Shown here one piece after another: positions 25,279 through 64,000 of a DNA stretch of 64,000 nucleotides. The stretch lies in contig JAPJBO010000034.1 in NCBI GenBank assembly GCA_030068145.1, forward strand, positions 495,452-559,451. Reading direction: 5' to 3'. The DNA comes from Diplonema papillatum (Eukaryota > Euglenozoa > Diplonemea > Diplonemida > Diplonemidae). The notes beneath the pieces are model-generated. The model saw only the letters and a program-made list of their open reading frames with translations, ran no database searches and was not told the DNA's origin. Position 1 is the first letter of the stretch; every line of letters starts with the position of its first letter. A program made the translations under genes and the position numbers.

Positions 25279-25410
25279 AGCTTGGAACTGTTACGAACAA
25301 GAGGAATCCAACTGGTTAATTAAACAACAGCATTTCGCTTCATCACAACGGTGGCGAGTGGAATGTGACATCTGCCCAGTGCCCTGATTGTCAACGCTGA
25401 GAGATCAGGT

Positions 25411-25470
<60 letters not shown>

Positions 25471-25556
25471 TTCTAATTAAAGACGCGCATGAATGGACCA
25501 ATGAGATTCCTTCTGTCCCTACCTACTATCTGGCGAAACAGCAGTCAAGGGAACGG
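25279..25556 (+). rRNA. 28S rRNA fragment spanning the R2 target region (pseudogene)
   Basis: The segment runs colinear with large-subunit rRNA from the CTTGGAACTG region through GTGACATCTGCCCAGTGC and GCGCGGGTAAACGGCGGGAG to GACTCTCTTAAGGTAGCC, CGCGCATGAATGGA and CAAGGGAACGG. Similarity ends near 25556. Several bases differ from the usual consensus in conserved stretches. This is a stranded fragment of about 278 nt outside rDNA. The R2 retrotransposon cleavage region (TTAAGG/TAGC near 25453) is present and uninterrupted. Confidence 0.93.
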
Positions 25557-36249: not shown

Positions 36250-36340
36250 ATATCTTCATCGAAGAAGACTTGATGCTAGCATCAACCATGCATGAGAGGC
36301 AGTACTCTGCCTAAACATAAAACTGACGTTTCCCCCCCTC
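36250..36340 (+). repeat. Family H palindrome-rich repeat, running into a 3' splice site
   Basis: It contains the perfect 16-bp palindrome TTGATGCTAGCATCAA, the CATGCATG palindrome, the GGCAG/CTGCC hairpin and a C-rich right end (GACGTTTCCCCCCCTCGC). The next bases are GCACAG, the candidate acceptor of the following exon. Other copies are at 34246, 49672 (minus) and 51948. Confidence 0.75.
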
Positions 36341-36348
36341 GCGCACAG

Positions 36349-39300
36349 GTCGACCCGTCGACGATGACGGCGGGGCAGCTGAAGGCGAAGCTGGCGGAGG
36401 CCATGCAGCGGCAGCAGCCTTCGCGGGACTGCTCCGCGGGCAATTTGGTCGTCCTCGACGCCTTCATGCGGCTCGTCGGCGACGACCGCTCGCTGGCCGC
36501 GGCCGGGCTGCGGAGCTCGGCGGTCCTCGCGACGACCGAGCAGTACCACGCGTACCACGCACAGGCTCGCCGTCAGCCGCCGTCCGCTGGCCGGATCACG
36601 GTCGCGGTCAACGGGGAAGGCGAGGGCAACTCGTTCGTGCTGAAGGGCCTCGACGCCACCCGCCACACCTTCGGCAAGATAGCAGCGGTCCTCGAACCCC
36701 ACGTCCGGCCCCCCCGCCGCGGCCGGCTGGCGGTCAAGGCGGGCGGCGTGGTGCAGCCAGCAGCGACGACGCTGGCGGAGGCCCGCGTGCGGCACAAAGA
36801 CGTCCTCGAGCTCTCGTTTTCGCCCGCCTCCGACGGCCCCGCCGGGCGGGAGGATGCGCGGGTTCCGGTGCTCGTCAAGACGGCGGGGCACCCCCGTATC
36901 ACCCTCGACCCCGCCCAGGTACCAGTGCCCGCCAAGGCGGCGGGGCACCCCCGCATCACCCTCGACGCGGCCGGCGGAGCGGGAATAGAGGATTCGCGGG
37001 GACTGCCGGCGAACCCCGGCCGGGGGCAGGTGCCCGCCAAGCACCCCCGCATCACCCTCGACCCCGCCCAGGTACCAGTGCCCGCCAAGGCGGCGGGCGA
37101 TTCCCGCATCACCCTCGACGCGGCCGGGGGTGCGGGAATAGAGGATTCGCGGCGGCTTCCGGCGCACCCCGCCCAGGTACCAGTGCCCGCCAAGGCGGCG
37201 GGGCACCCCCGCATCACCCTCGACGCGGCCGGGGGTGCGGGAATAGAGGATTTGCGGCGGCTTCCGGCGCACCCCGCCCAGGTACCAGTGTCCGCCAAGG
37301 CGGCGGGCGATTCCCGCATCATCCCCGACGCGGCCGGGGGTGCGGGAGTTGGGCCGGACCCGCCGCACGATGCGCGCCGGGTCCGCGAAAAAGGGGAGAC
37401 GACTCCTTCGTCCTCCTCGCACGGCAGCGCCCCGCGGAACCCGGGCGCGCCGGCTGCCTCCGGGCAGGGGTTGCGCGGGGCGGTCGAGCCGCTGCCTTTC
37501 CCCCTCGCCGAGGCTGCGGGGGGGGCGGGGCGCGGCGGGCGGCCGGTCCCCCGGAGGTTCTCGGACGTCGCCATCAAGGCGCCGCCGCCGGCGAGCGGGT
37601 GGGTCGCGCCGCAGGTCGTGACCGGGTGGCCGAAGGCCGCGGCGGCTCCGCTTGGCCCTCCCGCCCCTGCCGCCCAGGGCCCCGTCAAGTCGGCACCGCC
37701 GCTCTCCAATGTGCCGAGCGCGTCTCGCGTGACGGTAAGTGACGAAGCTGAAAAACAGGCGACCGCTCGGTGCGATCATGGGGCAGCAGAAGGTCTGCTG
37801 CGGCCTGCTCTCCCCGCCCAGGGCCCCGTCAAGTCGGCCCCGCCGTCCTCCAGCGTGTCGGGCGCGTCTCGTGTGACGGCAAGTGACGAAGCTGAACAAC
37901 AGGCGACCGCTCGGTACGATCACGGGGCAGGAGAAGGTCTGCTGCGGCCTGCTTTTTCCGCCCAGGGCCCCGTCAAGTCGGCACCGCCGCTCTCGAGCGC
38001 GTCTCGCGTGACGGCAAGTGACGAAGCTGAACAACAGGCGACCGCTCGGTACGATCATGGGGCAGGAGAAGGTCTGCTGCGGCCTGCTTCTTCCGCCCGG
38101 GGCACCGTCAAATCGGCGACGCCGTCCTCCCACAAGCCGCCGGGAAGACTCGTAGCGGAGCAGCGCGTCGGCGTAGAGATAGTGGACGATCGCGGAGCCG
38201 AGCATCCGCTGCGGCCTGCTTCTTCCGCCCAGGGCCCCGTCAAGTCGGCACCGCCGCTCTCCAATGCGCCGAGCGCGTCTCGCGTGACGGCAAGTGACGA
38301 AGCTGAACAACAGGCGACCGCTCGGTGCGATCATGGGGCAGGAGAAGGTCTGCTGCGGCCTGCTCTTCCCGCCCAGGGCCCCGTCAAGTCGGCCCCGCCG
38401 TCCTCCAGCGTGCCGGGCGCGTCTCGCGTGGCGGAAAGCGACAAGGTTGAACAACGAGCAGGCGAGACAGACAGTCTGCTGCGGCCTGCCCTTTCCGCCC
38501 AGGGGCCCATCAAATCGGCGACGCCGTCCTCCCACAAGCCGCCGGGAAGACTCGTAGCGGAGCAGCGTGTCGGCGTAGAGATAGTGGACGATCGCGGAGC
38601 CGAGCATCCGCTGCGGCCTGCCCTTTCCGCCCAGGGGCCCATCAAGTCAGCACCGCCGCTCTCCAATGTGCTGAGCGTGTCACGCGTGACGGCAAGTGAC
38701 GAAGCTGAGCAACAGGTGACCGCTTGGTACGATCAAGGGGCAGAAGGTCTACTGCGGCCCGCCCTTTCCGCCCAGGGGTCCATCAAGTCGGCACCGCCGC
38801 CCGCCAACGTGCCGAGCGTGACGGCAAGTGACGAAGCTGAACAACAGGCATACGTTCGGCACGATCATGGGGCAGAAGGTCTACTGCGGCCTGCTTTTTC
38901 CGCCCAGGGGCCCATCAAATCGGCGACGCCGTCCTCCAACGCGCTGAGCACGCCTCACGCGACGGCAAGAGACGAAACTGAGCAACAAGAGGGCTTGCAG
39001 TGCGATCACCGGGCCAACGATGCACCGCGGCCTGCCCTTTCCGCCCAGGGGCCCATCAAATCGGCGCCACCGTCTTGCAACACGCCGAGTGTGTCCCACG
39101 TGACGGAAAGAGACGAAGCCGAACAACAGGCATACGTTCGGTATGATCATGGGGCAGAAGGTCTACTGCGGCCTGCTTTTTTTGCCGAGGGGCCCATCCA
39201 ATCGGCGCCACCGTCTTGCAACACGCCGAGTGTGTCCCACGTGACGGAAAGAGACGAAGCCGAACAACAGGCAGACGTTCGGTACGATCAGGTGGCGCTG

Positions 39301-39909
39301 CGGCCTGCGCTTTCCGCCCAGGGGCCCATCAAATCGGCACCGCCGTCCCCCAGCGTGCCCCGCGTGGCGGAAAGAGGCACGGCGGGGCCCCGCGCAGCCG
39401 CTCAGCACGAGCACACCGACACCGAACGCCCCCTGCGCCCTGCCCCCTCCCTTTCCGCCCACGGGCCCGTCAAATCGGCCACGGTGCCGGCCGGAGGCAC
39501 GACGAAGCGCGGCAAAAGGCCGGTGCGCTTGCCTCCCGCCTCCGCATCCCCCTCGGGCAACGCGCCGCCCGGGTCGCCGGCGGCCGCGAAGGGGGAGAGA
39601 TACCACTGCCCACAGGAGGGGGCAGAGCAAGCGCCTGTTGCTCCGCGCAAAAACGGAGATCCCGCCGCCCGCCCCGAAGCCGCGGCGCCGACGCCAGCCG
39701 GCTCCGCCGGCCCCGGCCCCGGACCGCGCTCCCCCGGCTCGCCGGCCACCGCGGCGGACGCGCTTACCGAGTCGGCACCCCCGTCGCCCGCCGCCCCGCC
39801 GCCAGCGCGCCGCCTGCCTTGCAAGGCGTCGGGCTCGGTGCCCGTCGTGGCGGCGGTCCACGGGGCTGCCGCTCCCTGGGCGCGCGCCCGCGCGCCCTCG
39901 GCTTCAAAG
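36349..39909 (+). CDS. Long exon: two ubiquitin-like segments and two internal repeat arrays
   Basis: I do not recognise this protein as a whole. The exon is open for 1187 codons and is very GC-rich. It begins after an acceptor-like TTTCCCCCCCTCGCGCACAG (AG at 36347-36348); an ATG at 36364 is an alternative start. Residues about 1-70 look ubiquitin-like (VDPSTMTAGQLKAKLAEAM...LVGDDRSLAAAGL). Residues about 85-170 look like a second such fold (ITVAVNGEGEG...VLELSF). Then come about five copies of a unit with PVPAKAAGHPRITLDAAGG, and about fourteen copies of a unit with LLRPALSAQGPVKSAPPSS plus a charged DEAEQQ stretch. The end is a Pro/Ala-rich tail with a donor-like AAG/GTGTGG at 39909, beside a family C repeat. 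The ubiquitin-like call is tentative. The unit structure suggests a disordered, expandable scaffold. Confidence 0.6.
36870..37345 (+). repeat. Coding tandem array 1 in the ubiquitin-like gene
   Basis: CAGGTACCAGTGCCCGCCAA and CCCCGCATCACCCTCGACGC recur about five times with spacings near 60-120 bp. All copies are in the same frame, so the array has grown within a reading frame. Confidence 0.85.
37660..39480 (+). repeat. Coding tandem array 2 in the ubiquitin-like gene
   Basis: About fourteen units share CTGCGGCCTGC...TCCGCCCAGGG.CC.TCAA and then GTGACGG.AAG.GACGAAGC. Units are mostly 110-150 bp. Some pairs (around 38100-38260 and 38510-38640) share a private 34-residue insert with LVAEQRVGVEIVDD, which suggests higher-order duplication. 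Confidence 0.85.
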
Positions 39910-39948
39910 GTGTGGGCAGTTCGTTTTTTTCTTTTTTGGCCGCATGCA

Positions 39949-40092
39949 ATGTGTGAGGAAACTGAACCGCCCAAGTAGGACCTTCTGATCATGATCATTT
40001 GCCAAATTTGCCACCTGAAACCACGTCCAGGATTTGGGCTCAGGGTAGTGCGGTCAACGAAAACTCTAGTTTCCCTTGCGGTGTACGGTTTT
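39949..40092 (+). repeat. Family C repeat
   Basis: A full-length copy from AATGTGTGAGGAAACTGAAC to GCGGTGTACGGTTTT, close to the candidate splice donor at 39910. Confidence 0.85.
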
Positions 40093-40650: not shown

Positions 40651-40707
40651 CAGTGCATGCTAATCCATGTGGTTCATGTATTTACAAAAGAACTCAATGC
40701 TTAACAA
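40651..40707 (+). repeat. 5' flank repeat of retroelement A
   Basis: AATCCATGTGGTTCATGTA...AAAGAACTCAATGCTTAACAA is repeated directly after the element at 46833-46887. Both A copies read GCTTAACAA, whereas both B copies read GCTAAACAA. Confidence 0.85.
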
Positions 40708-40925
40708 TGCCTAAGCAGGCAGTCAAAAGCGACGCGCCGATGGACCCGAAGGAAGGCCACATACACGTGTGGCAGGAGCCGGAGCGGAACAAGGGCACGC
40801 AGGAATGCGAAGAGTGCGAAGCACTCCGGCAGAACGGGACGATGATGCGCACATGCTTCTGCGCTGCCCGCATCTGTGGTACGTGCTACACGGCCGCAAG
40901 CAAGAAAGTGCAGGAAGTCCGGTGA
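40707..40925 (+). CDS. Element A ORF1: short zinc-binding protein (72 residues)
   Basis: The ATG sits exactly at the end of the flank repeat (TTAACAATG). The product has an H-x-H pair (HIHVWQ) and a Cys cluster CEEC-x10-CFC-x4-CGTC. Element B's much longer ORF1 ends with the same arrangement (HVHAF, then CGVC-x11-CEGC-x4-CKTC). ORF1 products of non-LTR elements usually bind element RNA, and this one could do so through the zinc cluster, by inference. It ends at TGA (40923-40925), and ORF2 is open in the same frame directly after it. It may be a remnant that lost its N-terminal part, or a compact form. Confidence 0.6.
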   Translation: MPKQAVKSDAPMDPKEGHIHVWQEPERNKGTQECEECEALRQNGTMMRTCFCAARICGTCYTAASKKVQEVR

Positions 40926-43900
40926 CTCGTGAACTCGACGCTGGTGTCACATGGGGCTGGTGAAGGCCAGCTCCATGTTGACTTCGAGGCGGTCTGCTGG
41001 ACCAGCCACGACCTCTCCGGTGCCCCTGCAACCGCGCCACCTGACGCGTCACTTAACCACCACGACCCGAAGACCTCGGAACCAGCCGTCGCCTGCCTGG
41101 CGCCACTGCGATCTGCCCTGCCCTCGTTCGGGCTGCCGAGTCCTAGCACCCCTGCCAGGCAGTTCGATCACGCAGAGACGGAAAAAGAGAATTCCTGCTC
41201 CTCTTCTTTTCCCCTCCCTCTCTCTCACGGCGCGCCTGGCCTCAATCGCCCGGGAGCGATACCCCGAGGGACCGGTTTTGCGCACAAACAATCCCCCTAC
41301 AATAGCCAGTGTGCCCGGCCAACTTGCAACGAGGGCCCCCCCGCCAGGGTGGAGGGACCCATCCCGGGGCTAAGTTTCCAGGCGATCCCTCGGGATCTTC
41401 TGGATAGACTGAGCCGAGCACCCGAGCTCAACCCGGAAGCCCAATGGGGAAGGCTGGGGGGTGGACGCAGCAGGGAAACCCAGCAGTGGGGGCACGCCTA
41501 TCGACTAGGTGAACCCCCGATCAGACTGGAACGGGATATCCCCGAGGGGCCCCTGAAAGAAGCGGCGGATCTCATACGTGACCGCCTTGGGTGGGAACCG
41601 GACCAGTTGCTGGCCAACTGGTACCGGAGGGGAGTGGGGATCAACCCCCACAAAGACCAGAGAGAACTGGGTCCGAGGGTAGCGACCATATCGCTCTTGA
41701 GCGACACGGTCATGGAATGGGAGAGGGGGAGCCGGAAAGTGAGAACCCCTCTGCCGGTCGGCACACTGTGCCACATGGAAGGCGAGGCCAGGAACCTGTG
41801 GACACACGGGATTCGTCCCGATGATGTCGCACGCGACCGGGTCTCGCTGACCTACAGGGCCGTGCGCGAGGCCGCCTCCCAAAGTTTGCAAGGCCGGGAC
41901 ACCCCGCAAGAAACTCCCATACCCCCCCCGCCCAGCCCTCAGGCATCCACTGCACCCCCCCAACATCAGTCCAGCCCCGCGCCACGGACACTTTTGCTTC
42001 ATCACCAAAGAACTCTACAATCAATCAAAGAATCAGCAAGACAGCGGCTGATAACCGCGGGGGACGTCGAACAAAACCCTGGTCCCGGCCGCGCGGAGAT
42101 GAGGTTCGCGACGTTAAACGTAACCAACCTACTACAGTATCTCCCAGCGGCCGACGCGGTGGAAGCGGATCTTCTCTGCTGCCAGGAGGTGACACTCCTT
42201 CCGTGCAAACGGGTGCAGGCGGAGGAATACCTGCGGAAATGGTGCTGCCACTGGGGTCTGCCACCACCCGGAAGACTCTGTAGGAACTCCGGTAGTCGCT
42301 CGACGATGAACGCCGCGAACGGAGGGCTCTCCACTCTAGTACTGAGACCGATACCGGCGTACGATACGATGACGGCGCTCTCGCACGCAGCAATACGGTC
42401 CCCGGACCGAGTGAGCCATACAGTAGTAGCAACAGGGGCCGGCAACACGTTCGTGCACGTGTTCAATGTCTACTGCCCTTCCGGAAACGGGAGGGCGGAG
42501 AGCGAAGAGCGTGAGGACATGCTGGAGAAGATCCTCTTCGCAGCGGCGGATAGCCTCGGTGACGTCCCCATAATGGTGATGGGTGACCTGAACACAGAAG
42601 AAGACCGGTCCCCTGTACTGCGGAAGGCACTAAGGAATGGATGGTCCGACGCAGCGGAACTGCACCATGCACGTACCGACACACCACCGCCACCGACCTT
42701 TACCAGCGCCCGGACATCGGGCACGAGGATCGACCGCATACTCCTCAACCGAATAACGACGGGAGCTTTCCGCCAATGCGTCACCACCGCGGTGAACGTG
42801 CCGGGACACCGGCTCGTGACAATGACCCTGGACATTGCGGCGCTGCGCCAAATCGTGTGGCGATTTAAAGTACCGCGGGAAATCTCTACGGAGGGGGGAC
42901 CCAAGTGGGGCCTCTCGGACACAGAAGCTTACAGGGAAGCCGTACAGAGACTGGCCAACTCCGATTTCGCGGAACGGCTGGCAGCACAGCGAGCGGAAGA
43001 GGCCTGGCTCGAGTGGTCACGAGTCAGTGAGCAGTACTTGCAGGATGCCTTCGGAATCCCTGCGGAAGAAAGGGGAAGAAGTACGGGACGGGGGATAAAG
43101 ACGTCACCTAAAAGAGTCTGTATCACGGCAAGCACTGCGAGCGACGGGTCGGGGGCGGCGAACAGCAGACAGCTACGGCTCCGGAAGGCCATCCACAGGA
43201 TGGAACGCATCTGCAGCTACCTTGCGCAACGGCGCGGGCCGGAGCAGGCGGCTGGCACAGGCGTGCATGAAAGATGGCCAAGGGACAGAAGGATTCCCGG
43301 ATCATGAGGAGGCGAAGCAGCTTCTCACGGCATTGCGGGAAGAGACGAGCAGGCTCGGAAAGGAAGGATCGGCGGCCAGGTTTACGAAATACCGAGACAA
43401 GCTGAACGAGAGGGCCGATGCGAGCAGACGATGTCTGACAACCATCTGCGCCGGACGCGCTGAGCCGTCGGGGGTGTTGCGAAAGGGGGCGGGAGTGACT
43501 GCAAATGTTGACGAGATGGACGAGGTGCTGAACACTGCGTGGGACCCTATCCTGCGTAAGTACAAGGACGGGCCAGAGCCGGAGTACGAGCCGTTTCGGG
43601 ATCGGTTCCGGGATCACATCGGCCCACATAGGATGGAAGCCGGAACAATCACGGGGGAGGAGTTGCGAATTCTGCTGAGGAAGAAGCCGAAGAAAAGCGC
43701 GTCAGGGGTGGATGGCTGGCGTATGGCTGAACTGCGGGAGTTGCCGCTCCCCCTGCTGAATGCACTTGCAGACGTCATGAACCTGGTCGAAGCAACTGGA
43801 GACTGGCCGGCAAGCATGACAACTGCGCTGGTGTCGATGGTGCCGAAGGATGAGAGTCAAGACCCGCTGCACACAAGACCGATAACCGTCACATCCGCCG

Positions 43901-46818
43901 TGTACCGCTTATGGGCCTGCCGCAGGCTGGCGGACATAGTTCTGTGGCAAGAGGAATGGATCGAAGAAGGACAGAAAGGCTTTCGACCGGGTCACCGGAT
44001 CGAGGACGTCTTGATGGAAATTGGGCTCGAGATGGAGGACGCCTTGTTAGACGGGGAGCCGCTCTACGGTGTGGCGCTGGACTTCCGGAAATGCTTCGAC
44101 ATGGTCCCGCTAGAGATAGTACTGCGCTTAGCCGAGGACTTAGGATTGCACAATCGGGTTCTCAAGCCGCTGAGGGCTATCTACAGACTGCTCGCGAGAC
44201 GCTTCAAGCTACCATTAGGGGTCGGGATGGAGCTCCAGAAGACGGTCGCGTTCTCGACGAGACGTAGGCACCAGTCGACGCTCAAAATCCGCAGCGTGGA
44301 TGCGCTGCTGCGGTTTAGCAAATCCGTCAAGTGCCTCGGGGTCCTAGTCTCGACGGCGAAGAATAGGACGGAAAGGTCCGACTCGGAGAGGGTGGAGAAG
44401 GCGGCTGCCCTGGCGGAAGGCCTCCGCCATGCGCCGTTCCGGTACGAAAAGCGGGTCCGGATTGTGCAGTCGAATGTGCTACCGGCGGCGCTGTCAGACT
44501 GCTCTTTCGCGCCGGTATCGAAGGTGGCGATGAAACGTCTGACGACGTCGGTGATGGGACTGATCTGGGGTGGATCCAACCCGAAGCGCGCGAGGGCGAT
44601 GGTCCTAAACTTTCAGGAGAAGGGCCACCTGACGGATCCCGGTACATGCCTAGCATATAGGGTGACGACAGCGTTTTACGCGGCGTGCGAGAGGTTGCCA
44701 CGACTGCTGCCTCTGATGGAGAGCATCCGGGGAAGATACGCCGAGGGGGACCTACCCCTGGGGCCAGTTGGACTGGCGATGAGGAGCATGGAGGAGTGTG
44801 GACACGTATGGGGACCCGGGCCCCTGTCTCGCACGCTGAGGAATGGTGCAACATATGACCCGTTAACCTCGGCACCTTCGAAGAGGGGACATGAAGTTAG
44901 GGCGGACTTGAGGGCGAAGACGTGGTCCCGACTGGTGGCGAGGCGGCCGGGATTTGAGGGCATACAGAGAGCCGACCTGGAGCGGACGAACTCCTTCTGG
45001 AGGATGCGTGAATGTCCCGCGCACACCGCGAGGCTTATACGTGTAGCGTTGGCGGGGGGGGTGAACACGGCTGAGTACACGTCGCGGATGAGGCAGGCCG
45101 GAGCTGAGCCGCAGGCGCCCAGCTGCAAGCACTGTGGAAGCGGCGACACCGAGGACGAGAAACACGTATTCTGGGACTGCGGAGCGTACTCGCACATACG
45201 GCGACGAGAGGCACATGCCGAGCTGATGGCAGCCAACCGGGCCGACTGGCCCAGATGCACGCTGGAACACGGTGTGGTAGTACCCGAGAATGCCCAATTC
45301 TCGAGGCGGCTCCAGGAGATGATGGCTGAAATCCTTGCGGAACGGGCTGGGCTCGAAGCACGTGGCTGGGTGGCCAGGAACCCCACGACCCCCTGGTCGA
45401 GAGCGAATGCGATGCCTGCCGAGAAATTTGACCACCCCTTCGCGCGGATTGCCCCGGCATGGACGTGGGAGCGGAACAAGACCTGGGGACTACCGACGTT
45501 TTATGCGTTGGTAGCGTGGCTGTCGGACATGCAATGGACCGAGAACGGGCAGGCGTCAATGCTGGAGCTTGCGATCGACTTTGAACTCTTCTCGGGCCTC
45601 AGCATGCCGCTGCACGGGAATGCGCCGAAGGGGGTGAGAGAACGGGGAAACGTCCTGCGCTGCATGATGAGCGCGTTGGACAAGCTGGCGGCACAGCAAG
45701 GGCTGGGAAGCTGCATGAGAGGAGAGAGGGTGTGCCCGACGACGTCGCTGTCGTTCATGGGCATCACGGGGATATCGGGTATACGGCCCAGGCCACGCTT
45801 TCGCGAGGCACACACGGGGACGATACTTGAGGAACAAGTGAAAGGAAGCGATGTAGGGACGCAGTGCCCGACGTACCCTGACTGGACGATCGGGAGAGCG
45901 GCGAGGTGGGCCCTGCCTGCCCCACCACAACTGCACCCAGACCCCGTGCATATGCCGGGTGTCGGTATAGAGAAGGCACTCGTCACGTGCGCGACCCATC
46001 ACAAAGGGAAGTGTGAGGCGTGCAGAGCACTCGTCCGAAGGGACGTTCCCACGGTAGAGATGTGCTGCCGGCACCATCACCACGCGAACGATGGGCAGCC
46101 GATCGCGGTGTGCACAGAGCACAGCACGACGAAGTGCGGCGAGTGCAAGACGGCGGCGGCGTGTTGCCGCAGCGGGCATCATGCCTGCCGCACGCATGGC
46201 AGAGGAACCTGCCAAGAGTGCAAAAGGCTCCCTACGCTGACGCAGAGGCGACCGGCGGCATGTTGCAGCCGCGGCCACCACCAGTCCAACAAGCCGAACG
46301 TCCAGTCAACCCCCGGACGCAACAAGAAGAAGAGGCCCTCCTCACCCACCCAGGTGGGTGTACAGCGGGAGACGCCATTAGGAAAGCGAGCGGCGCGAGC
46401 GGCGCGAGCGGCGCGAGCGCCGCTCGCGGCAACGAAAAAGGAGACGGCGGCAACCGGACGGGCGACCAAGAGGCCGCCACCAACGCCAGGAACCAGCGAA
46501 CGACCAGCGCTGAAGAAGAGGGTGCTTGGCACCCCGAAGGAAGGCCCGATCGCCGGCCGCAAGCGGAAGAAGACGAAGGCGACCACCCCCGACTCAGGGG
46601 TGCATCGAAGGAAGAAGAAGGTACCGAGGGCAAGCAGCTCTCAGAAACGACCGGGGACCACGGGCACGCCAATGCCCTCGAAAGTGAAAAACGGGCACAC
46701 GTGCCCGCCCTCGTACTCGCCGACTCAGTCTCTGGAATCGCAAGAAAGCCAAACCCCGCTAGCTCCACAAATGCTCGACCTTGACGACGCAATGGCAGGT
46801 GACGACGTCATCCGATAA
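40926..46818 (+). pseudogene. Element A ORF2: AlkB-2A-endonuclease-RT polyprotein, two lesions
   Basis: The frame is open right after the ORF1 TGA. First comes an AlkB-like domain (41560-41870) with iron ligands in NPHKDQ and LWTHGI and the 2OG-binding Arg in RVSLTYR. The 2A peptide GDVEQNPGP follows (42060-42086). Then comes an APE-type endonuclease (ATLNVTNL, CCQEVTL, VMGDLNTEE, GTRIDRILLNR) and a reverse transcriptase with motif A (ALDFRKCFDMV). After that lie a knuckle (CKHCGSGDTEDEKHVFWDC), a Cys/His array (45990-46280) and a basic tail. Compared with B, 38 nt are missing near 43252, which shifts the frame. A further 213 nt near 44222 are missing in frame, which removes motif B and the YADD. 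The first in-frame ATG is at 41712, inside the AlkB core. Confidence 0.9.
42060..42086 (+). other. 2A ribosome-skipping peptide in element A
   Basis: GDVEQNPGP fits the 2A consensus D-V/I-E-x-N-P-G-P exactly. Skipping between Gly and the final Pro (42083/42084) would release the AlkB-like part from the endonuclease-RT part. 2A-like peptides are known from several non-LTR retrotransposons. Confidence 0.92.
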
Positions 46819-46832
46819 CCTGACTTTCAAGG

Positions 46833-46887
46833 CAGTGCATGCTAATCCATGTGGTTCATGTACTTAAAAGAACTCAATGCTTAACAA
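46833..46887 (+). repeat. 3' flank repeat of retroelement A
   Basis: CAGTGCATGCTAATCCATGT to ACTCAATGCTTAACAA, starting 15 bp after the ORF2 stop. It is followed by GACGTGGGC, which also follows the B copy (ACGTGGGC). Confidence 0.85.
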
Positions 46888-55053: not shown

Positions 55054-55098
55054 TAATCCATGTGGTTCATGTACTTAAAAGAACTCAATGCTAAACAA
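55054..55098 (+). repeat. 5' flank repeat of retroelement B
   Basis: TAATCCATGTGGTTCATGTA to AACTCAATGCTAAACAA, identical to the 3' copy at 63071-63115 over this length. Confidence 0.88.
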
Positions 55099-55258
55099 CC
55101 AACGATTTAAAAGCTACAGTTTCTGTACTTTATTGGCTGCTCACGCGGCCGGTAAAGTGCGCCCGGACAACATCCAGGACAAACACCCCCTTAACACAAC
55201 AGCGGTACCCACCCGCTTAAAGAACACGAGCTGCCCGCTGCTCACCCAAACGGAAGCG

Positions 55259-55533
55259 ATGGACAGGATCAACGTCCTGATCCAGGAGGCGCGGGGGATG
55301 GCTGAGCACGCCGCCCTCGACGAGCTGGATGCCGTTTACGGCATCATCGACGTGGCAACGACGCTGCTCAGGCGTAGGATCGAAGCGCGGAGCGGCAAGC
55401 CGGCGCAGCAACCACCAAGGCAGCAGCAGCAGCAACTGAAGCAGCAACAGCAGCGACCGCAGCAGCAGCAGCAGCAGCAGCAGCCGAAACAGCAACAGCA
55501 GCAGCAGCAACCGAAGCAGCAACAGCAGCGACC

Positions 55534-55565
<32 letters not shown>

Positions 55566-57079
55566 GGCAACCGCAACAGCAACAGCAACACCAACAGCAA
55601 CAGCAGCAACACCAACAGCAGCCGCAGCAGCAGCAACCACAACGCCCCCGGCAAGGGAACGCGCCCACCTGGGCGGACGTGACCAGGCGGCCCCCGCCGC
55701 CCTGCGAGATCGACGCCGCCGACTGGGACGCGCCGGTCCTCCCAGAACCCAACTTCGAGGCGGTCGGGGCTGGGCTCTGGGTCGCCCCCAGCGCCGCCGC
55801 AGCAGAGGAAGCGAAGGGACCCGCTGCGGATGCGGTGGACGTCGCGGAGCGCGACGGGAAGCGGGTGCGCCTTGGCGTGCTGTGCCGTGAGACCTTCAGC
55901 GACGCGCGACGGGGCCCCGTGCTGATGGTGGGCGGAAGGGTACAAGAGATGTACCTGTGGACGGGCGGAGAACCGGTGCGCCAGCGGGGGCAGGTGACAG
56001 TGCAGAGAGTGCCCGTCGGCGCGGTGAAGCCGACCGCTGCCACGACGGTGCTGGCCTTCGTCGTGGCCCGCAAACACGCGTCGGAGGAGACGTGGTCTTG
56101 CGTGGAGAAGGACCCCCGCACGGCGCTGACACGCCTATGCCGAAGGGCCGTCAGGGCGGCCCTAAAGATGGACATACGTGTCCGCGACGACACCATGTGG
56201 GGCGTGTCGTCGCAGCAGGGGCGGCGCGAGCTGGTCGTGCGGGTGCCCCGCGCCCATGCCGACGAGATCCTGGCCAGCTCCGGTCGGGATGGCTGCTTCT
56301 GGCGGTCGACGGAGAAGGCGTGCCGGGACAGCATGCCGGTGGTCGCCCTGCAGAAGGGGGCCACGAGGGCGGTCGCCCTGGAAGTGGCGAAGCGGGCAGG
56401 CGGGGCGGCCGCCGGTCTCGTGCTCGCCGGCAAACGCCTCCTCGTACGCGCACGCAGCGACGCCGCGCTGGAAGAGGTGCGTGCGGCGGCCGGCGAACAC
56501 GCCGCTGCCCCCCTCGAGTCGAAGCCGCGTTTCCTGCTCATGGGCGCGGCGCCACGCGAGCACGAGGCGGACGTGGAGCACGTCCTGCGGCAGGCCGGCT
56601 GGCAGGCAGACGTCGTCTCGTCGTTCCTGCGAGGTGGGGTGCGGGTCTGCGTCGTGACGTCGGCCACCGACCCTCCGTTCCGCGGAGGAGGCACCCGATC
56701 TCCGGGTGAACCCCTTCGACGGAGGGGAGATGCCGAGGGAGCGGCGCAGGCGGCTCGCTGCCGGCCCCAGCGGGAAGCGGCGGGTGCGGCTGCCGGCGCC
56801 GGAGGAAGACGAGCCGCAGCCAGCAGCCCCGCCAGCGGCCCCGCCAGCGGACGCGGCAGCGCAGAAGAAGAGGAAGACGCCGGAGCCGGCAGGGGACGGG
56901 CCGGCTCCCGCGGGAAGCGACGTCCGGATGGACGAGAGCACGTCCACGCCTTCGGGGACCCGACGAAGGCCGCCGCCGGCTACACCTGCGGCGTGTGTAG
57001 GAAGAAGAAGGCGAAGGGTCAGCTTCGCCTGGAATGCGAGGGCTGCGACGTCAGCGCGTGCAAGACTTGCACGAGCTGA
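55259..57079 (+). CDS. Element B ORF1: polyQ protein with C-terminal zinc cluster
   Basis: The protein has 606 residues from the ATG at 55259; an in-frame ATG at 55088, inside the flank repeat, would add 57. A helical N-terminus (MDRINVLIQEARGMAEHAAL) is followed by a Gln-rich stretch of about 70 residues (55424-55650). A middle part of about 300 residues (GKRVRLGVLCRETFSD...ALKMDIRVRDDTMWG...VTSATDPPF) may hold RNA-binding folds, but I see no sure family. A Pro/Ala-rich linker leads to a zinc cluster HVHAF...CGVC-x11-CEGC-x4-CKTC at the very end. Element A's ORF1 is essentially that final cluster. The position just before ORF2 and the cluster suggest a nucleic-acid-binding ORF1 product, by inference. 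It ends at TGA 57077-57079. Confidence 0.7.
55424..55650 (+). repeat. CAG/CAA-rich repeat (polyglutamine) in element B ORF1
   Basis: Runs of CAGCAGCAGCAG and CAACAGCAA with imperfect 50-60 bp periodicity (CGACCGCAGCAGCAG recurs). The mixed CAG/CAA codons keep the frame while limiting pure repeat length. Confidence 0.95.
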
Positions 57080-57083
57080 CTAA

Positions 57084-60000
57084 CCCGCACCCGGCGCCAG
57101 TGGCCCCGCCAGACCATTACGGGTTGCCCTGCGCGCGAGGCCCTCGTTCGGGCTGCCGAGTCCTAGCACCCCTGCCAGGCAGTTCGATCACGCAGAGACG
57201 GAAAAAGAGAATTCCTGCTCCTCTTCTTTTCCCCTCCCTCTCTCTCACGGCGCGCCGGGCCTCAATCGCCCGGGAGTGATACCCCGAGGGCCCGGTTTTG
57301 CGCACAAACAGTTCCCCTACAATAGCCAGTGTGCCCGGCCAACTTGCAACGAGGGCCCCCCCGCCAGGGTGGAGGGACCCATCCCGGGGCTAAGTTTCCA
57401 GGCGATCCCTCGGGATCTTCTGGATAGACTGAGCCGAGCACCCGAGCTCAACCCGGAAGCCCCATGGGGAAGGCTGGGGGGTGGACACAGCAGGGAAACC
57501 CAGCAGTGGGGGCACGCCTATCGACTAGGTGAACCCCCGATCAGACTGGAACGGGGTATCCCCGAGGGGCCCCTGAAAGAAGCGGCGGATCTCATACGTG
57601 ACCGCCTTGGGTGGGAACCGGACCAGTTGCTGGCCAACTGGTACCGGAGGGGAGTGGGGATCAACCCCCACAAAGACCAGAGAGAACTGGGTCCGAGGGT
57701 AGCGACCATATCGCTCTTGAGCGACACGGTCATGGAATGGGAGAGGGGGAGCCGGAGAGTGAGAACCCCTCTGCCGGTCGGCACACTGTGCCACATGGAA
57801 GGCGAGGCCAGGAACCTGTGGACACACGGGATTCGTCCCGATGATGTCGCACGCGACCGGGTCTCGCTGACCTACAGGGCCGTGCGCGAGGCCGCCTCCC
57901 AAAGTTTGCAAGGCCGGGACACCCCGCAAGAAACTCCCATACCCCCCCCGCCCAGCCCTCAGGCATCCACTGCACCCCCCCAACATCAGTCCAGCCCCGC
58001 GCCACGGACACTTTTGCTTCATCACCAAAGAACTCTACAATCAATCAAAGAATCAGCAAGACAGCGGCTGATAACCGCGGGGGACGTCGAACAAAACCCT
58101 GGTCCCGGCCGCGCGGAGATGAGGTTCGCGACGTTAAACGTAACCAACCTACTACAGTATCTCCCAGCGGCCGACGCGGTGGAAGCGGATCTTCTCTGCT
58201 GCCAGGAGGTGACACTCCTTCCGTGCAAACGGGTGCAGGCGGAGGAATACCTGCGGAAATGGTGCTGCCACTGGGGTCTGCCACCACCCGGAAGACTCTG
58301 TAGGAACTCCGGTAGTCGCTCGACGATGAACGCCGCGAACGGAGGGCTCTCCACTCTAGTACTGAGACCGATACCGGCGTACGATACGATGACGGCGCTC
58401 TCGCACGCAGCAATACGGTCCCCGGACCGAGTGAGCCATACGGTAGTAGCAACAGGGGCCGGCAACACGTTCGTGCACGTGTTCAATGTCTACTGCCCTT
58501 CCGGAAACGGGAGGGCGGAGAGCGAGGAGCGTGAGGACATGCTGGAGAAGATCCTCTTCGCAGCGGCGGATAGCCTCGGTGACGTCCCCATAATGGTGAT
58601 GGGTGACCTGAACACAGAAGAAGACCGGTCCCCTGTACTGCGGAAGGCACTAAGGAATGGATGGTCCGACGCAGCGGAACTGCACCATGCGCGTACCGGT
58701 GACACACCACCACCACCGACCTTTACCAGCGCCCGGACATCGGGCACGAGGATCGACCGCATACTCCTCAACCGAATAACGACGGGAGCTTTCCGCCAAT
58801 GCGTCACCACCGCGGTGAACGTGCCGGGACACCGGCTCGTGACAATGACCCTGGACATTGCGGCGCTGCGCCAAATCGTGTGGCGATTTAAAGTACCGCG
58901 GGAAATCTCTACGGAGGGGGGACCCAAGTGGGGCCTCTCGGACACAGAAGCTTACAGGGAAGCCGTACAGAGACTGGCCAACTCCGATTTCGCAGAACGG
59001 CTGGCAGCACAGCGAGTGGAAGAGGCCTGGCTCGAGTGGTCACGAGTCAGTGAGCAGTACTTGCAGGATGCCTTCGGAATCCCTGCGGAAGAAAGGGGAA
59101 GAAGTACCGGCCGGGGGATAAAGACGTCGCCTAAAAGAGTCTGCATCACAGCAAGCACTGCGAGCGACGGGTCGGGGGCGGCGAACAGCAGACAGCTACG
59201 GCTCCGGAAAGCCATCCACAGGATGGAACGCATCTGCAGCTACCTTGCGCAACGACGCGGGCCGGAGGCAGTTCCGCATGAGGTATCCCGCTGCTGGCAG
59301 AACAGCAGGCGGCTGGCACAGGCGTGCATGAAAGATGGCCAAGGGACAGAAGGATTCCCGGATCATGAGGAGGCGAAGCAGCTTCTCACGGCATTGCGGG
59401 AAGAGACGAGCAGGCTCGGAAGGGAAGGATCGGCGGCCAGGTTTACGAAGTACCGAGACAAGCTGAACGAGAGGGCCGATGCGAGCAGACGATGTCTGAC
59501 AACCATCTGCGCCGGACGCGCTGAGCCGTCGGGGGTGTTGCGAAACGGGGGCGGGGGTGACTGCAAATGTTGACGAGATGGACGAGGCGCTGAACACTGC
59601 GTGGGACCCTATCCTGCGTAAGTACAAGGACGGGCCAGAGCCGGAGTACGAGCCGTTTCGGGATCGGTTCCAGGATCACATCGGCCCACATATGATGGAA
59701 GCCGGAACAATCACGGGGGAGGAGCTGCGAATTCTGCTGAGGAAGAAGCCGAAGAAAAGCGCGTCAGGGGTGGATGGCTGGCGTATGGCTGAACTGCGGG
59801 AGTTGCCGCTCCCCCTGCTGAATGCACTTGCAGACGTCATGAACCTGGTCGAAGCAACTGGAGACTGGCCGGCAAGCATGACAACTGCGCTGGTGTCGAT
59901 GGTGCCGAAAGACGAGAGTCAAGACCCGCTGCACACAAGACCGATAACCGTCACATCCGCCGTGTACCGCCTATGGGCCTGCCGCAGGCTGGCGGACATA

Positions 60001-63000
60001 GTTCTATGGCAAGAGGAATGGATCGAAGAAGGACAGAAAGGCTTTCGACCGGGTCACCGGATCGAGGACGTCTTGATGGAAATTGGGCAGACGGGGAGCC
60101 GCTCTACGGTGTGGCGCTGGACTTCCGGAAATGCTTCGACATGGTTCCGCGAGAGATAGTGCTGCGCTTAGCCGAGGACTTGGGATTGCACAATCGGGTT
60201 CTCAAGCCGCTGAGGGCTATCTACAGACTGCTCGCGAGACGCTTCAAGCTACCATTAGGGGTGGGCAGGGAGTTCAGTGTGACCAACGGTATCCTTCAAG
60301 GGTGCCCTGTATCCGTCATACTCATCAATGCCTTGCTAGTGATGAACGCGGTCAAGAAAGAAGCGGAGGGTGTGAGTCCAAAGTCATACGCGGACGACGC
60401 CACACTGCTGTCCAGGTTGTCGGAGGCCGCCCTGCAAAAGGGAGTGGATGTAGTAGACGAGTTCTGCACACTCACCGGGATGGAGCTAAACCTCCAGAAG
60501 ACGGTCGCGTTCTCGACGAGACGTAGGCACCAGTCGACGCTCAAACTCCGCAGCGTGGATGCGCTGCTGCGGTTTAGCAAATCCGTCAAGTGCCTCGGGG
60601 TCCTAGTCTCGACGGCGAAGAATAGGACGGAAAGGTCCGACTCGGAGAGGGTGGAGAAGGCGGCTGCCCTGGCGGAAGGCCTCCGCCATGCGCCGTTCCG
60701 GTACGAAAAGCGGGTCCGGATTGTGCAGTCGAATGTGCTACCGGCGGCGCTGTCAGGCTGCTCTTTCGCGCCGGTGTCGAAGGTGGCGATGAAACGGCTG
60801 ACGACGTCGGTGATGGGACTGATCTGGGGTGGATCCAACCCGAAGCGCGCGAGGGAGATGGTCCTAAACTTTCAGGAGAAGGGCCACCTGACGGATCCCG
60901 GTACATGCCTAGCATATAGGGTGACGACAGCGTTTTACGCGGCGTGCGAGAGGTTGCCACGACTGCTGCCTCTGATGGAGAGCATCCGGGGAAGATACGC
61001 CGAGGGGGACCTACCCCTGGGGCCAGTTGGACTGGCGATGAGGAGCATGGAGGAGTGTGGACACGTATGGGGACCCGGGCCCCTGTCTCGCACGCTGAGG
61101 AATGGTGCAACATATGACCCGTTAACCTCGGCACCTTCGAAGAGGGGACATGAAGTTAGGGCGGACTTGAGGGCGAAGACGTGGTCCCGACTGGTGGCGA
61201 GGCGGCCGGGATTTGAGGGCATACAGAGAGCCGACCTGGAGCGGACGAACTCCTTCTGGAGGATGCGTGAATGTCCCGCGCACACCGCGAGGCTTATACG
61301 TGTAGCGTTGGCGGGGGGGGTGAACACGGCTGAGTACACGTCGCGGATGAGGCAGGCCGCTGCAAGCACTGTGGAAGCGGCGACACCGAGGACGAGAAAC
61401 ACGTATTCTGGGACTGCGGAGCGTACTCGCACGTACGGCGACGAGAGGCACATGCCGAGCTGATGGCAGCCAACCGGGCCGACTGGCCCAGATGCACGCT
61501 GGAACACGGTGTGGTAGTACCCGAGAATGCCCAATTCTCGAGGCGGCTCCAGGAGATGATGGCTGAAATCCTTGCGGAACGGGCTGGGCTCGAAGCACGT
61601 GGCTGGGTAGCCAGGAACCCCACGACCCCCTGGTCGAGAGCGAATGCGATGCCTGCCGAGAAGCTCGACCACCCCTTCGCGCGGATTGCCCCGGCATGGA
61701 CGTGGGAGCGGAACAAGACCTGGGGACTACCGACGTTTTATGCGTTGGTAGCGTGGCTGTCGGACATGCAATGGACCGAGAACGGGCAGGCGTCAATGCT
61801 GGAGCTTGCGATCGACTTTGAACTCTTCTCGGGCCTCAGCATGCCGCTGCACGGGAATGCGCCGAAGGGGGTGAGAGAACGGGGAAACGTCCTGCGCTGC
61901 ATGATGAGCGCGTTGGACAAGCTGGCGGCACAGCAAGGGCTGGGAAGCTGCATGAGAGGAGAGAGGGTGTGCCCGACGACGTCGCTGTCGTTCATGGGCA
62001 TCACGGGGATATCGGGTGTACGGCCCAGGCCACGCTTTCGCGAGGCACACACGGGGACGATACTTGAGGAACAAGTGAAAGGAAGCGATGTAGGGACGCA
62101 GTGCCCGACGTACCCTGACTGGACGATCGGGAGAGCGGCGAGGTGGGCCCTGCCTGCACCACCACAACTGCACCCAGACCCCGTGCATATGCCGGGTGTC
62201 GGTATAGAGAAGGCACTCGTCACGTGCGCGACCCATCACAAAGGGAAGTGTGAGGCGTGCAGAGCACTCGTCCGAAGGGACGCTCCCACGGTAGAGATGT
62301 GCTGCCGGCACCATCACCACGCGAACGATGGGCAGCCGATCGCGGTGTGCTCAGAGCACAGCACGACGAAGTGCGGCGAGTGCAAGACGGCGGCGGCGTG
62401 TTGCCGCAGCGGGCATCATGCCTGCCGCACGCATGGCAGAGGAACCTGCCAAGAGTGCAAAAGGCTCCCTACGCTGACGCAGAGGCGACCGGCGGCATGT
62501 TGCAGCCGCGGCCACCACCAGTCCAACAAGCCGAACGTCGAGTCAACCCCCGGACGCAACAAGAAGAAGAGGCCCTCCTCACCCACCCAGGTGGGTGTAC
62601 AGCGGGAAACGCCAGTAGGAAAGCGAGCGGCGCGAGCGGCGCGAGCGCCGCTCGTGGCAACTAAAAAGGAGACGGCGACGACTGGACGGGCGACCAAGAG
62701 GCTGCCACCAACGCCAGGAACCAGCGAACGACCAGCGCTGAAGAAGAGGGTGCTCGGCACCCCGAAGGAAGGCCTGATCGCCGGCCGCAAGCGGAAGAAG
62801 ACGAAGGCGACCACACCCGACTCAGGGGTGCATCGAAGGAAGAAGAAGGTACCGAGGGCAAGCAGCTCTCAGAAACGACCGGGGACCACGGGCACACCAA
62901 TGCCCTCGAAAGTGGAAAACGGGCACTCCTGCCCGCCCTCGTACTCGCCGACTCAGTCTCTGGAATCGCAAGAAAGCCAAACCCCGCTAGCTCCACAAAT

Positions 63001-63046
63001 GCTCGACCTTGACGACGCAATGACAGGTGACGACGTCATCCGATAA
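57084..63046 (+). pseudogene. Element B ORF2: AlkB-2A-endonuclease-RT polyprotein, three frame breaks
   Basis: The frame opens just after a TGACTAA junction at the end of ORF1. The domain order matches A. The AlkB-like domain (about 57580-57890) keeps HKD, the distal His and the RVSLTYR Arg. The 2A peptide is at 58080-58106. The APE-type endonuclease follows (VMGDLNTEE, GTRIDRIL), then a reverse transcriptase with motif A (ALDFRKCFDMV), motif B (ILQGCPVSV) and the catalytic YADD. The Cys/His array (62220-62520) and a basic tail end it. Frame changes fall near 59548 (one extra base), 60090 (22 nt lost) and 61358 (22 nt lost, cutting into the zinc knuckle). No in-frame ATG precedes 57732. Confidence 0.9.
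58080..58106 (+). other. 2A ribosome-skipping peptide in element B
   Basis: GDVEQNPGP is identical to element A, including the preceding LITA. The skip point lies between Gly (58101-58103) and Pro (58104-58106). Confidence 0.92.
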
Positions 63047-63060
63047 CCTGGCTATCGAGG

Positions 63061-63115
63061 CAGTGCATGCTAATCCATGTGGTTCATGTACTTAAAAGAA
63101 CTCAATGCTAAACAA
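63061..63115 (+). repeat. 3' flank repeat of retroelement B
   Basis: CAGTGCATGCTAATCCATGT to ACTCAATGCTAAACAA, starting 14 bp after the ORF2 stop. Confidence 0.88.
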
Positions 63116-63964: not shown

Positions 63965-64000
63965 CAGTCCATGTGGTTCATGCACTTAAAAGAACTCAAT
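63965..64000 (+). repeat. Fifth, partial copy of the retroelement flank repeat
   Basis: CAGTCCATGTGGTTCATGCA to AAAAGAACTCAAT runs off the window end. It may be an empty target or the 5' edge of a third element. Confidence 0.7.

Follow-up and report, generated by a model that had tools for sequence, protein, structure and literature searches.

The window, by which is meant the whole stretch of 64,000 nucleotides analysed here from contig JAPJBO010000034.1 of the marine protist Diplonema papillatum, raises the question of why a retrotransposon should have an AlkB-like dioxygenase ahead of its endonuclease and reverse transcriptase (RT), and of how such a domain is translated. Two copies of the element lie on the plus strand about 8 kb apart, copy 1 at approximately 40708-46842 and copy 2 at approximately 55099-63070, with the following features.

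40651..40707, plus strand: 5' target-like repeat of copy 1, 94.7% identical to 46833-46887
40708..40925, plus strand: 3' end of ORF1 of the 5'-truncated copy 1, its stop TGA at 40923-40925 followed by CTC; identified by stop context and by the 99.5% identity of 40708-41113 with the AlkB-less family L042 over its ORF1 end and linker
40926..41351, plus strand: linker of copy 1 from the ORF1 stop to AlkB, in frame and without an in-frame AUG; mosaic joint at about 41113-41120
41352..41858, plus strand: AlkB (2OG-Fe(II) dioxygenase) domain of copy 1 (PF13532, 1.8e-12; fold match)
42060..42086, plus strand: 2A motif GDVEQNPGP of copy 1, predicted ribosome skipping (motif)
42099..42752, plus strand: APE-type endonuclease domain of copy 1 (PF03372, 8.8e-09)
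43099..46818, plus strand: broken RT of copy 1, its YADD stretch missing by comparison with copy 2 (partial RVT_1 match, 5e-05, under the cut-off), and a Cys/His-rich C-terminal region in another frame
46833..46887, plus strand: 3' target-like repeat of copy 1 (comparison with the 5' repeat)
55054..55098, plus strand: 5' 45-nt target repeat of copy 2, 100% identical to 63071-63115
55099..55135, plus strand: spliced-leader exon at the 5' end of copy 2 (sequence)
55259..57079, plus strand: ORF1 of copy 2, Gln-rich with a Cys-rich C-terminus, frame-shifted near its end relative to L011; stop TGA followed by CTA
57372..57878, plus strand: AlkB domain of copy 2 (PF13532, 2.8e-12)
58080..58106, plus strand: 2A motif GDVEQNPGP of copy 2 (motif)
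58119..58775, plus strand: APE-type endonuclease domain of copy 2 (PF03372, 3.8e-09)
60087..60602, plus strand: RT core of copy 2, with YADD at 60387-60398 (RVT_1, 6.5e-15)
61334..63046, plus strand: Cys/His-rich C-terminal region of copy 2, in another frame
63071..63115, plus strand: 3' 45-nt target repeat of copy 2, identical to the 5' repeat

Outside the two copies the window holds a single 28S rRNA fragment (25295-25511, by Rfam), which fits the thousands of scattered 28S pieces described for the D. papillatum genome in the part of PMC10161547 available. There is also a long plus-strand open frame at 36280-39978 with imperfect repeats spaced at about 105-555 nt, overlapped on the minus strand by an open frame of 796 codons.

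The initial annotation had read the ligand motifs of an AlkB domain, followed by a 2A motif, endonuclease and RT, in two copies and in one frame order. All of its motifs lie in copy 1 where it had placed them (HKD at 41649-41657, WTH at 41799-41807, RVSLTYR at 41838-41858 and GDVEQNPGP at 42060-42086), and the second copy carries the same set at 57669, 57819, 57858 and 58080. The order AlkB, 2A motif, APE endonuclease, RT likewise stood, whereas a single frame was found only in copies elsewhere in the genome, both window copies being broken. Pfam matches to PF13532 (48.3 bits in copy 1 and 47.7 bits in copy 2 against a cut-off of 31.2) and to PF03372 (35.9 and 37.1 bits against 24.5) were obtained in each copy. 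The RVT_1 match of copy 2 reached 55.8 bits, that of copy 1 being partial at 23.5 bits and under the cut-off of 29.6; about 220 nt are missing from copy 1, and the same stretch of copy 2 holds the YADD motif. The frame of copy 2 is broken at several points.

That the dioxygenase is an AlkB protein was examined by structure prediction, which the initial annotation had named as a check, with the lack of a fold match as the outcome against it; the fold was recovered. The AlphaFold model of the domain, built on a shallow alignment of four sequences, has a pLDDT of 76 and a pTM of 0.78, with four other models at pLDDT 60-72. It gave 142 fold matches in the PDB at E<=1e-3, and the 50 listed are all AlkB proteins, the best among those listed being ALKBH6 (5.7e-9). 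HxD, the distal H and both Arg of RVSLTYR are invariant across the element AlkBs and an ALKBH8-like protein. The AlkB fold is thus real as judged from the model, with all predicted metal and 2-oxoglutarate ligands kept. By sequence the closest PDB match is ALKBH8, at 3.4e-7 with a single sequence and 2.6e-10 by profile. ALKBH8 is known as a tRNA-modifying enzyme; this best sequence match does not point to m6A. The RRM and methyltransferase domains that stand beside AlkB in ALKBH8 were not found by Pfam in the element proteins scanned, in which only PF13532, PF03372 and RVT_1 exceeded their cut-offs.

The same order of AlkB, 2A, endonuclease and RT, which was to be sought across the assembly, proved to be widespread there. 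In the 271-Mb assembly 55 copies were scored out of 2065 candidates, window copy 2 included; 54 of the 55 scored matches are without an internal stop and 35 of the 55 copies have open frames of at least 1980 codons. The family is numerous and its copies are near-identical. Twenty-seven distinct loci were compared, made up of 20 fetched loci (8.4-9.9 kb), five further short loci and the two window copies, with L001, L002 and L005 left out as duplicates. The frame running from AlkB through 2A stays open for at least 1600 further codons in 17 of the 27; the other ten comprise five short pieces, three ended by the fetched stretch or contig, and the two broken window copies. A 2A motif of the D(V/I)ExNPGP type is present 5' of the endonuclease in L001-L028. 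The single open frame in many copies ruled out a host AlkB gene that merely adjoins a LINE. PF13532 was absent from all 55 annotated proteins examined, many of whose models begin 3' of the 2A. AlkB relatives were not found in viral contigs, where three stretches fitted a pattern and none was confirmed, and P0002 had no match among phage records. With an APE-type endonuclease 5' of a LINE-like RT, the element is, by its predicted domains, an APE-type non-LTR retrotransposon (LINE); the RT of the relative P0014 has human L1 ORF2p as its nearest match in the PDB (1.1e-20, with R2 at 5.5e-15). AlkB belongs to this young retrotransposon family as a module under constraint.

How AlkB is translated is less obvious. 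The initial annotation held that ORF2 starts with AlkB and is split by 2A from the endonuclease-RT. A 2A motif does lie between the two, but no AUG precedes AlkB, which follows ORF1 in the same frame after a single UGA-CUN stop, and therefore ORF2 does not simply start with AlkB. The stop after ORF1 is TGA CTA in 22 of the 27 distinct loci and TGA CTC in five. It is in frame with AlkB in 26, the exception being window copy 2, which is shifted directly 3' of the stop. This frame continues upstream without a stop for 480 codons or more in 16 of the 27 loci, and in the ten where it is shorter the copy is truncated, broken or ended by the fetched stretch. An in-frame AUG is first reached at codon 220 in the subfamily A1 and at codon 262 in the subfamily A2, within AlkB and past HxD. 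The chance of so long a stretch without AUG is 0.0025 (A1) or 0.0009 (A2) if judged by downstream Met usage, and 0.12 or 0.08 if judged by base composition; ATGs in any frame number one in A1 against 6.2 expected and four in A2 against 7.5 expected. Long open frames are common in the GC-rich DNA of the window, and the open linker is for this reason weak evidence. Stops read through at a high rate in human cells have UGA CUA as their consensus, according to the portion of PMC4359377 available. Folding of 121 nt at the stop gave z values against shuffles of -2.2 in A1, -2.2 in L042 and +0.9 in L043, the RNA structure after the stop being more stable than shuffles in two of the three families.

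Since AlkB is under selection (see below) it must be translated. The simplest route would be an ORF1-AlkB readthrough product ended by the 2A, with the endonuclease-RT made next. The position of AlkB in frame after ORF1 and UGA-CUN indicates that 2A probably frees ORF1-AlkB as one piece, and judged from these reading frames AlkB is probably made as an ORF1-AlkB readthrough fusion from which the endonuclease-RT is separated by 2A. This suggests two recoding signals in tandem, UGA and 2A, in one retrotransposon. The alternative that survives best, although we consider it somewhat unlikely, is that AlkB comes from a second trans-spliced mRNA by way of a non-AUG start, the ORF1 stop not being read through at all. 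The host does have spliced-leader RNA genes, as stated in the available part of PMC10161547, and a related AlkB of a second type (B type) has an ATG of its own where the domain begins; however, the corresponding position in the A type is not ATG, and a second mRNA would leave aside that ORF1 and AlkB stand in one frame behind UGA-CUN in those 26 loci, a layout found likewise in both related families examined.

Those two related families, both without AlkB, also bear on the origin of the readthrough layout. L042 has ORF1, an in-frame TGA CTC and 159 codons to the 2A, and L043 has ORF1, an in-frame TGA CTA and 106 codons to the 2A. From this AlkB is seen as an insertion into an older ORF1-UGA-2A-EN-RT layout, where EN is the endonuclease. 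The stretches read in L042 and L043 rule out that AlkB is common to all of the clade; the annotated proteins of P0022 and P0028 show none either, but may be incomplete. The AlkB family forms a single clade (100/100) in an RT tree of 30 rows, beside P0018 and P0021 (93/79), with P0022 outside (100/97). Within that clade AlkB was read in L011, L026 and an L010 copy (by eye like P0014), and not in P0019. Copy 1 of the window joins the two kinds of element, its first 406 nucleotides being near-identical to AlkB-less L042 and 41120-43247 being 98.8% identical to copy 2. Copy 1 accordingly belongs to a mosaic subfamily in which an AlkB-less ORF1 end and linker are joined to the AlkB family. The ORF1 proteins of A1 and A2 are themselves distant relatives only (34% identity over 64 residues).

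The ends of the element are informative about its template. A spliced-leader exon was found at the 5' end in full in eight of the 27 loci and in part in four, and complete copies with it include the one at window 55099-55135, L011, L013, L015, L016, L017, L023 and L026. The available parts of two papers list this 39-nt sequence as a euglenozoan leader (PMC3795323) and a length of 39 nt for the Diplonema spliced leader (PMC10161547). That complete copies start with the spliced leader implies that the copied template is a trans-spliced mRNA. Copy 1 is 5'-truncated; LTRs are absent and there are short flanking repeats only, of about 57 nt in copy 1 (94.7% identical) and 45 nt in copy 2 (identical). 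Among eight loci in which both ends were compared, six share 28-60 nt, L014 shares 17 and L026 shares 10. The flanking motif ends in AACTCAATGCT(T/A/C)AAC or near variants. It measures about 33-57 nt and is seen on both sides of copies and between tandem copies, in the window at 40651-40707, 46833-46887, 55054-55098, 63071-63115 and 63968-64000. Copies in L013, L016 and L027 are placed in the 3' target of another copy. The flanking motif looks like a preferred insertion target with long duplications; because the motif that both ends share is that of the target itself, it is weaker as proof of target-site duplication. A 3' poly(A) or simple-repeat tail is usual in LINEs and not universal; none was found here, the element running directly into the target motif.

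AlkB is not confined to this class of element. The B-type AlkB is 77.6% identical to the A type. It occurs at 15 genome places whose matches are 94-97% identical, and a further match reaches 79%; its 165-residue domain is identical in the 12 loci fetched. On contig C364 it lies in an open frame of 4088 codons, in which a stretch with an RT (L041; RVT_1, 5.6e-22) starts 3660 nt 3' of AlkB in the same frame, and the nearest PDB match of this RT is R2 (9.9e-8, against 0.0018 for L1). The protein P0013 joins AlkB, an OTU-like stretch (5.2e-4, 21.0 bits, below the cut-off of 23.3) and, by eye, the start of an R2-like RT. Cys-His and restriction-like endonuclease motifs, which we take to be present from inspection by eye, stand at the end of the B-type element. 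L029-L041, P0008, P0010, P0011 and P0013 belong to this R2-like element, which combines AlkB with an OTU-like stretch and whose open frame reaches 4088 codons. Two of its proteins, P0008 and P0013, are publicly annotated as 'tRNA (carboxymethyluridine(34)-5-O)-methyltransferase', with no methyltransferase domain by Pfam. For AlkB, the A and B types are separated by a dS of 0.46-0.54, and members of the A type by 0.41-0.43. If dS can be trusted as a distance, these values suggest that AlkB passed between the APE-type and R2-like classes well after their RTs had split.

What AlkB does for the element can be set out as a model. The trans-spliced element mRNA would yield ORF1, and some ribosomes would read through the UGA-CUA stop to give ORF1-AlkB. 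At the 2A the ORF1-AlkB chain would be released and the endonuclease-RT made separately. ORF1, which has a Cys-rich C-terminus and is presumed to bind nucleic acid, would tether AlkB to the element RNA. There the enzyme would strip methyl groups, either damage (m1A, m3C) or host marks (m6A), that would otherwise block reverse transcription or mark the element RNA for silencing. The arrangement suggests that AlkB protects or unmarks the RNA of its own element, and demethylation of element RNA is the most likely function. The model as a whole, with readthrough to ORF1-AlkB, release by 2A, demethylation of element RNA, insertion into an older layout and sharing with an R2-like class, is the account towards which we lean, if only by a little. 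A more speculative extension, possible in our view and rather doubtful, makes AlkB a counter-defence cassette that is mobile among diplonemid retrotransposons. It would have moved between the anciently separate APE-type/2A and R2-like/OTU-like classes, at a dS (given above) close to that between two branches of the APE-type family, because erasing host RNA methylation pays, and in the APE-type elements it would be dosed by UGA readthrough and then 2A as an ORF1-AlkB fusion riding on element RNA.

Two other substrates have to be weighed. AlkB might act on the DNA side: while target-primed reverse transcription is under way, it would repair alkylation in single-stranded cDNA or in the target DNA, in the manner of ALKBH2 or ALKBH3. 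The structural matches listed include DNA-bound ABH2 and ALKBH3, and the profile matches ALKBH3 over most of the domain, but the best sequence match is ALKBH8 and, because the 2A lies between them, AlkB is joined to ORF1 rather than to the endonuclease-RT; we hold this to be unlikely. It is less probable still that AlkB modifies host RNA, for example tRNA wobble uridines as in ALKBH8, and so favours translation or recoding of the element. ALKBH8 is indeed the top sequence match, both alone and by profile, and the element seems dependent on two recoding events, UGA and 2A, but the element proteins have by Pfam neither the RRM nor the methyltransferase of that enzyme. Demethylation of element RNA remains the preferred reading.

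Studies of selection on AlkB gave results that differ with depth. Values of dN/dS were calculated by the Nei-Gojobori method on single pairs, dS being no clock. For L011 against a more distant second copy in L010, dN/dS is 0.151 for AlkB, 0.155 for the endonuclease and 0.571 for the AlkB-2A linker. Between A-type and B-type AlkB it is 0.30, and over the deeper comparisons together 0.14-0.31. Between the young subfamilies A1 and A2 (L011 and L026), where counts are small, AlkB has six nonsynonymous changes and one synonymous, against one and eight for endonuclease plus RT (Fisher p 0.009); A1-A2 counts for AlkB range over 4-6 nonsynonymous and 0-1 synonymous. From these counts AlkB has recently not been conserved like the endonuclease and RT, and relaxed or positive selection on it is possible. 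Constraint on AlkB, on which the initial annotation had let its reading stand or fall, is therefore borne out in the deeper pair, with purifying selection equal to that on the endonuclease, and is not seen in the young one. A neutral passenger, or an artefact of annotation, as the A1-A2 counts might suggest, is very improbable and was ruled out by the dN/dS of the deeper comparisons, with the A1-A2 pair without constraint as a reservation; the ligands are retained, the copies are many, and AlkB occurs in two element classes.

A limited search of the open-licence PMC literature, mostly of titles and the starts of abstracts, found no described non-LTR family with AlkB, in agreement with the initial annotation, and apart from PMC9289625 no retrotransposon of any kind with it. 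The genome paper counts a dozen AlkB genes of D. papillatum as host demethylases, and some of these AlkB 'genes', so far as the available part of PMC10161547 describes them, may belong to mobile elements. The same part reports that Diplonema can be transformed by gene replacement, and the role of AlkB is thus testable.

Several known systems resemble the Diplonema elements in part. R2-like elements with a restriction-like endonuclease share their type of RT with the B-type element, which differs by an added AlkB and OTU-like stretch in one very long frame. A 2A is known in APE-type non-LTR elements, for example L1Tc of Trypanosoma cruzi (PMC4981915, in part, citing Heras 2006 and Odon 2013). 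The L1Tc type shares the 2A motif, APE endonuclease and RT, and its host is likewise euglenozoan; in the Diplonema element, however, ORF1, UGA-CUN and AlkB precede the 2A and complete copies start with the spliced leader. Pr77 is a 5'-end hallmark of the L1Tc/ingi clade. The available text of PMC4981915 makes no mention of AlkB, and that of PMC12278014, on trypanosomatid mobile elements, none of AlkB, dioxygenase or 2A peptide. AlkB domains occur in plant RNA viruses of the Alphaflexiviridae, Betaflexiviridae and Closteroviridae, where they are proposed to keep RNA intact (PMC9289625, in part). These too are selfish RNA-based elements carrying AlkB. To our knowledge the plant viruses differ in having no RT and no link to 2A. 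The closest parallel is among Ty3/Gypsy LTR elements of Phalaenopsis, which carry an AlkBH5-like ORF whose product has m6A demethylase activity and RNA binding in vitro, according to the part of PMC9289625 available. Integrase, a mark of the orchid elements, had no match in the Diplonema element proteins scanned. Both are retrotransposons with their own AlkB protein, but the orchid element is a plant LTR element whose AlkB is encoded by an extra ORF, nested in AlkBH5 (PMC9289625), whereas that of Diplonema is a protist non-LTR element of APE type with AlkB between a UGA-CUN stop and the 2A and closest in sequence to ALKBH8. If the present reading is true, retrotransposons would have captured AlkB a second time and independently, in another element class and a distant eukaryote, and this would support RNA methylation as a general battleground between hosts and retroelements.
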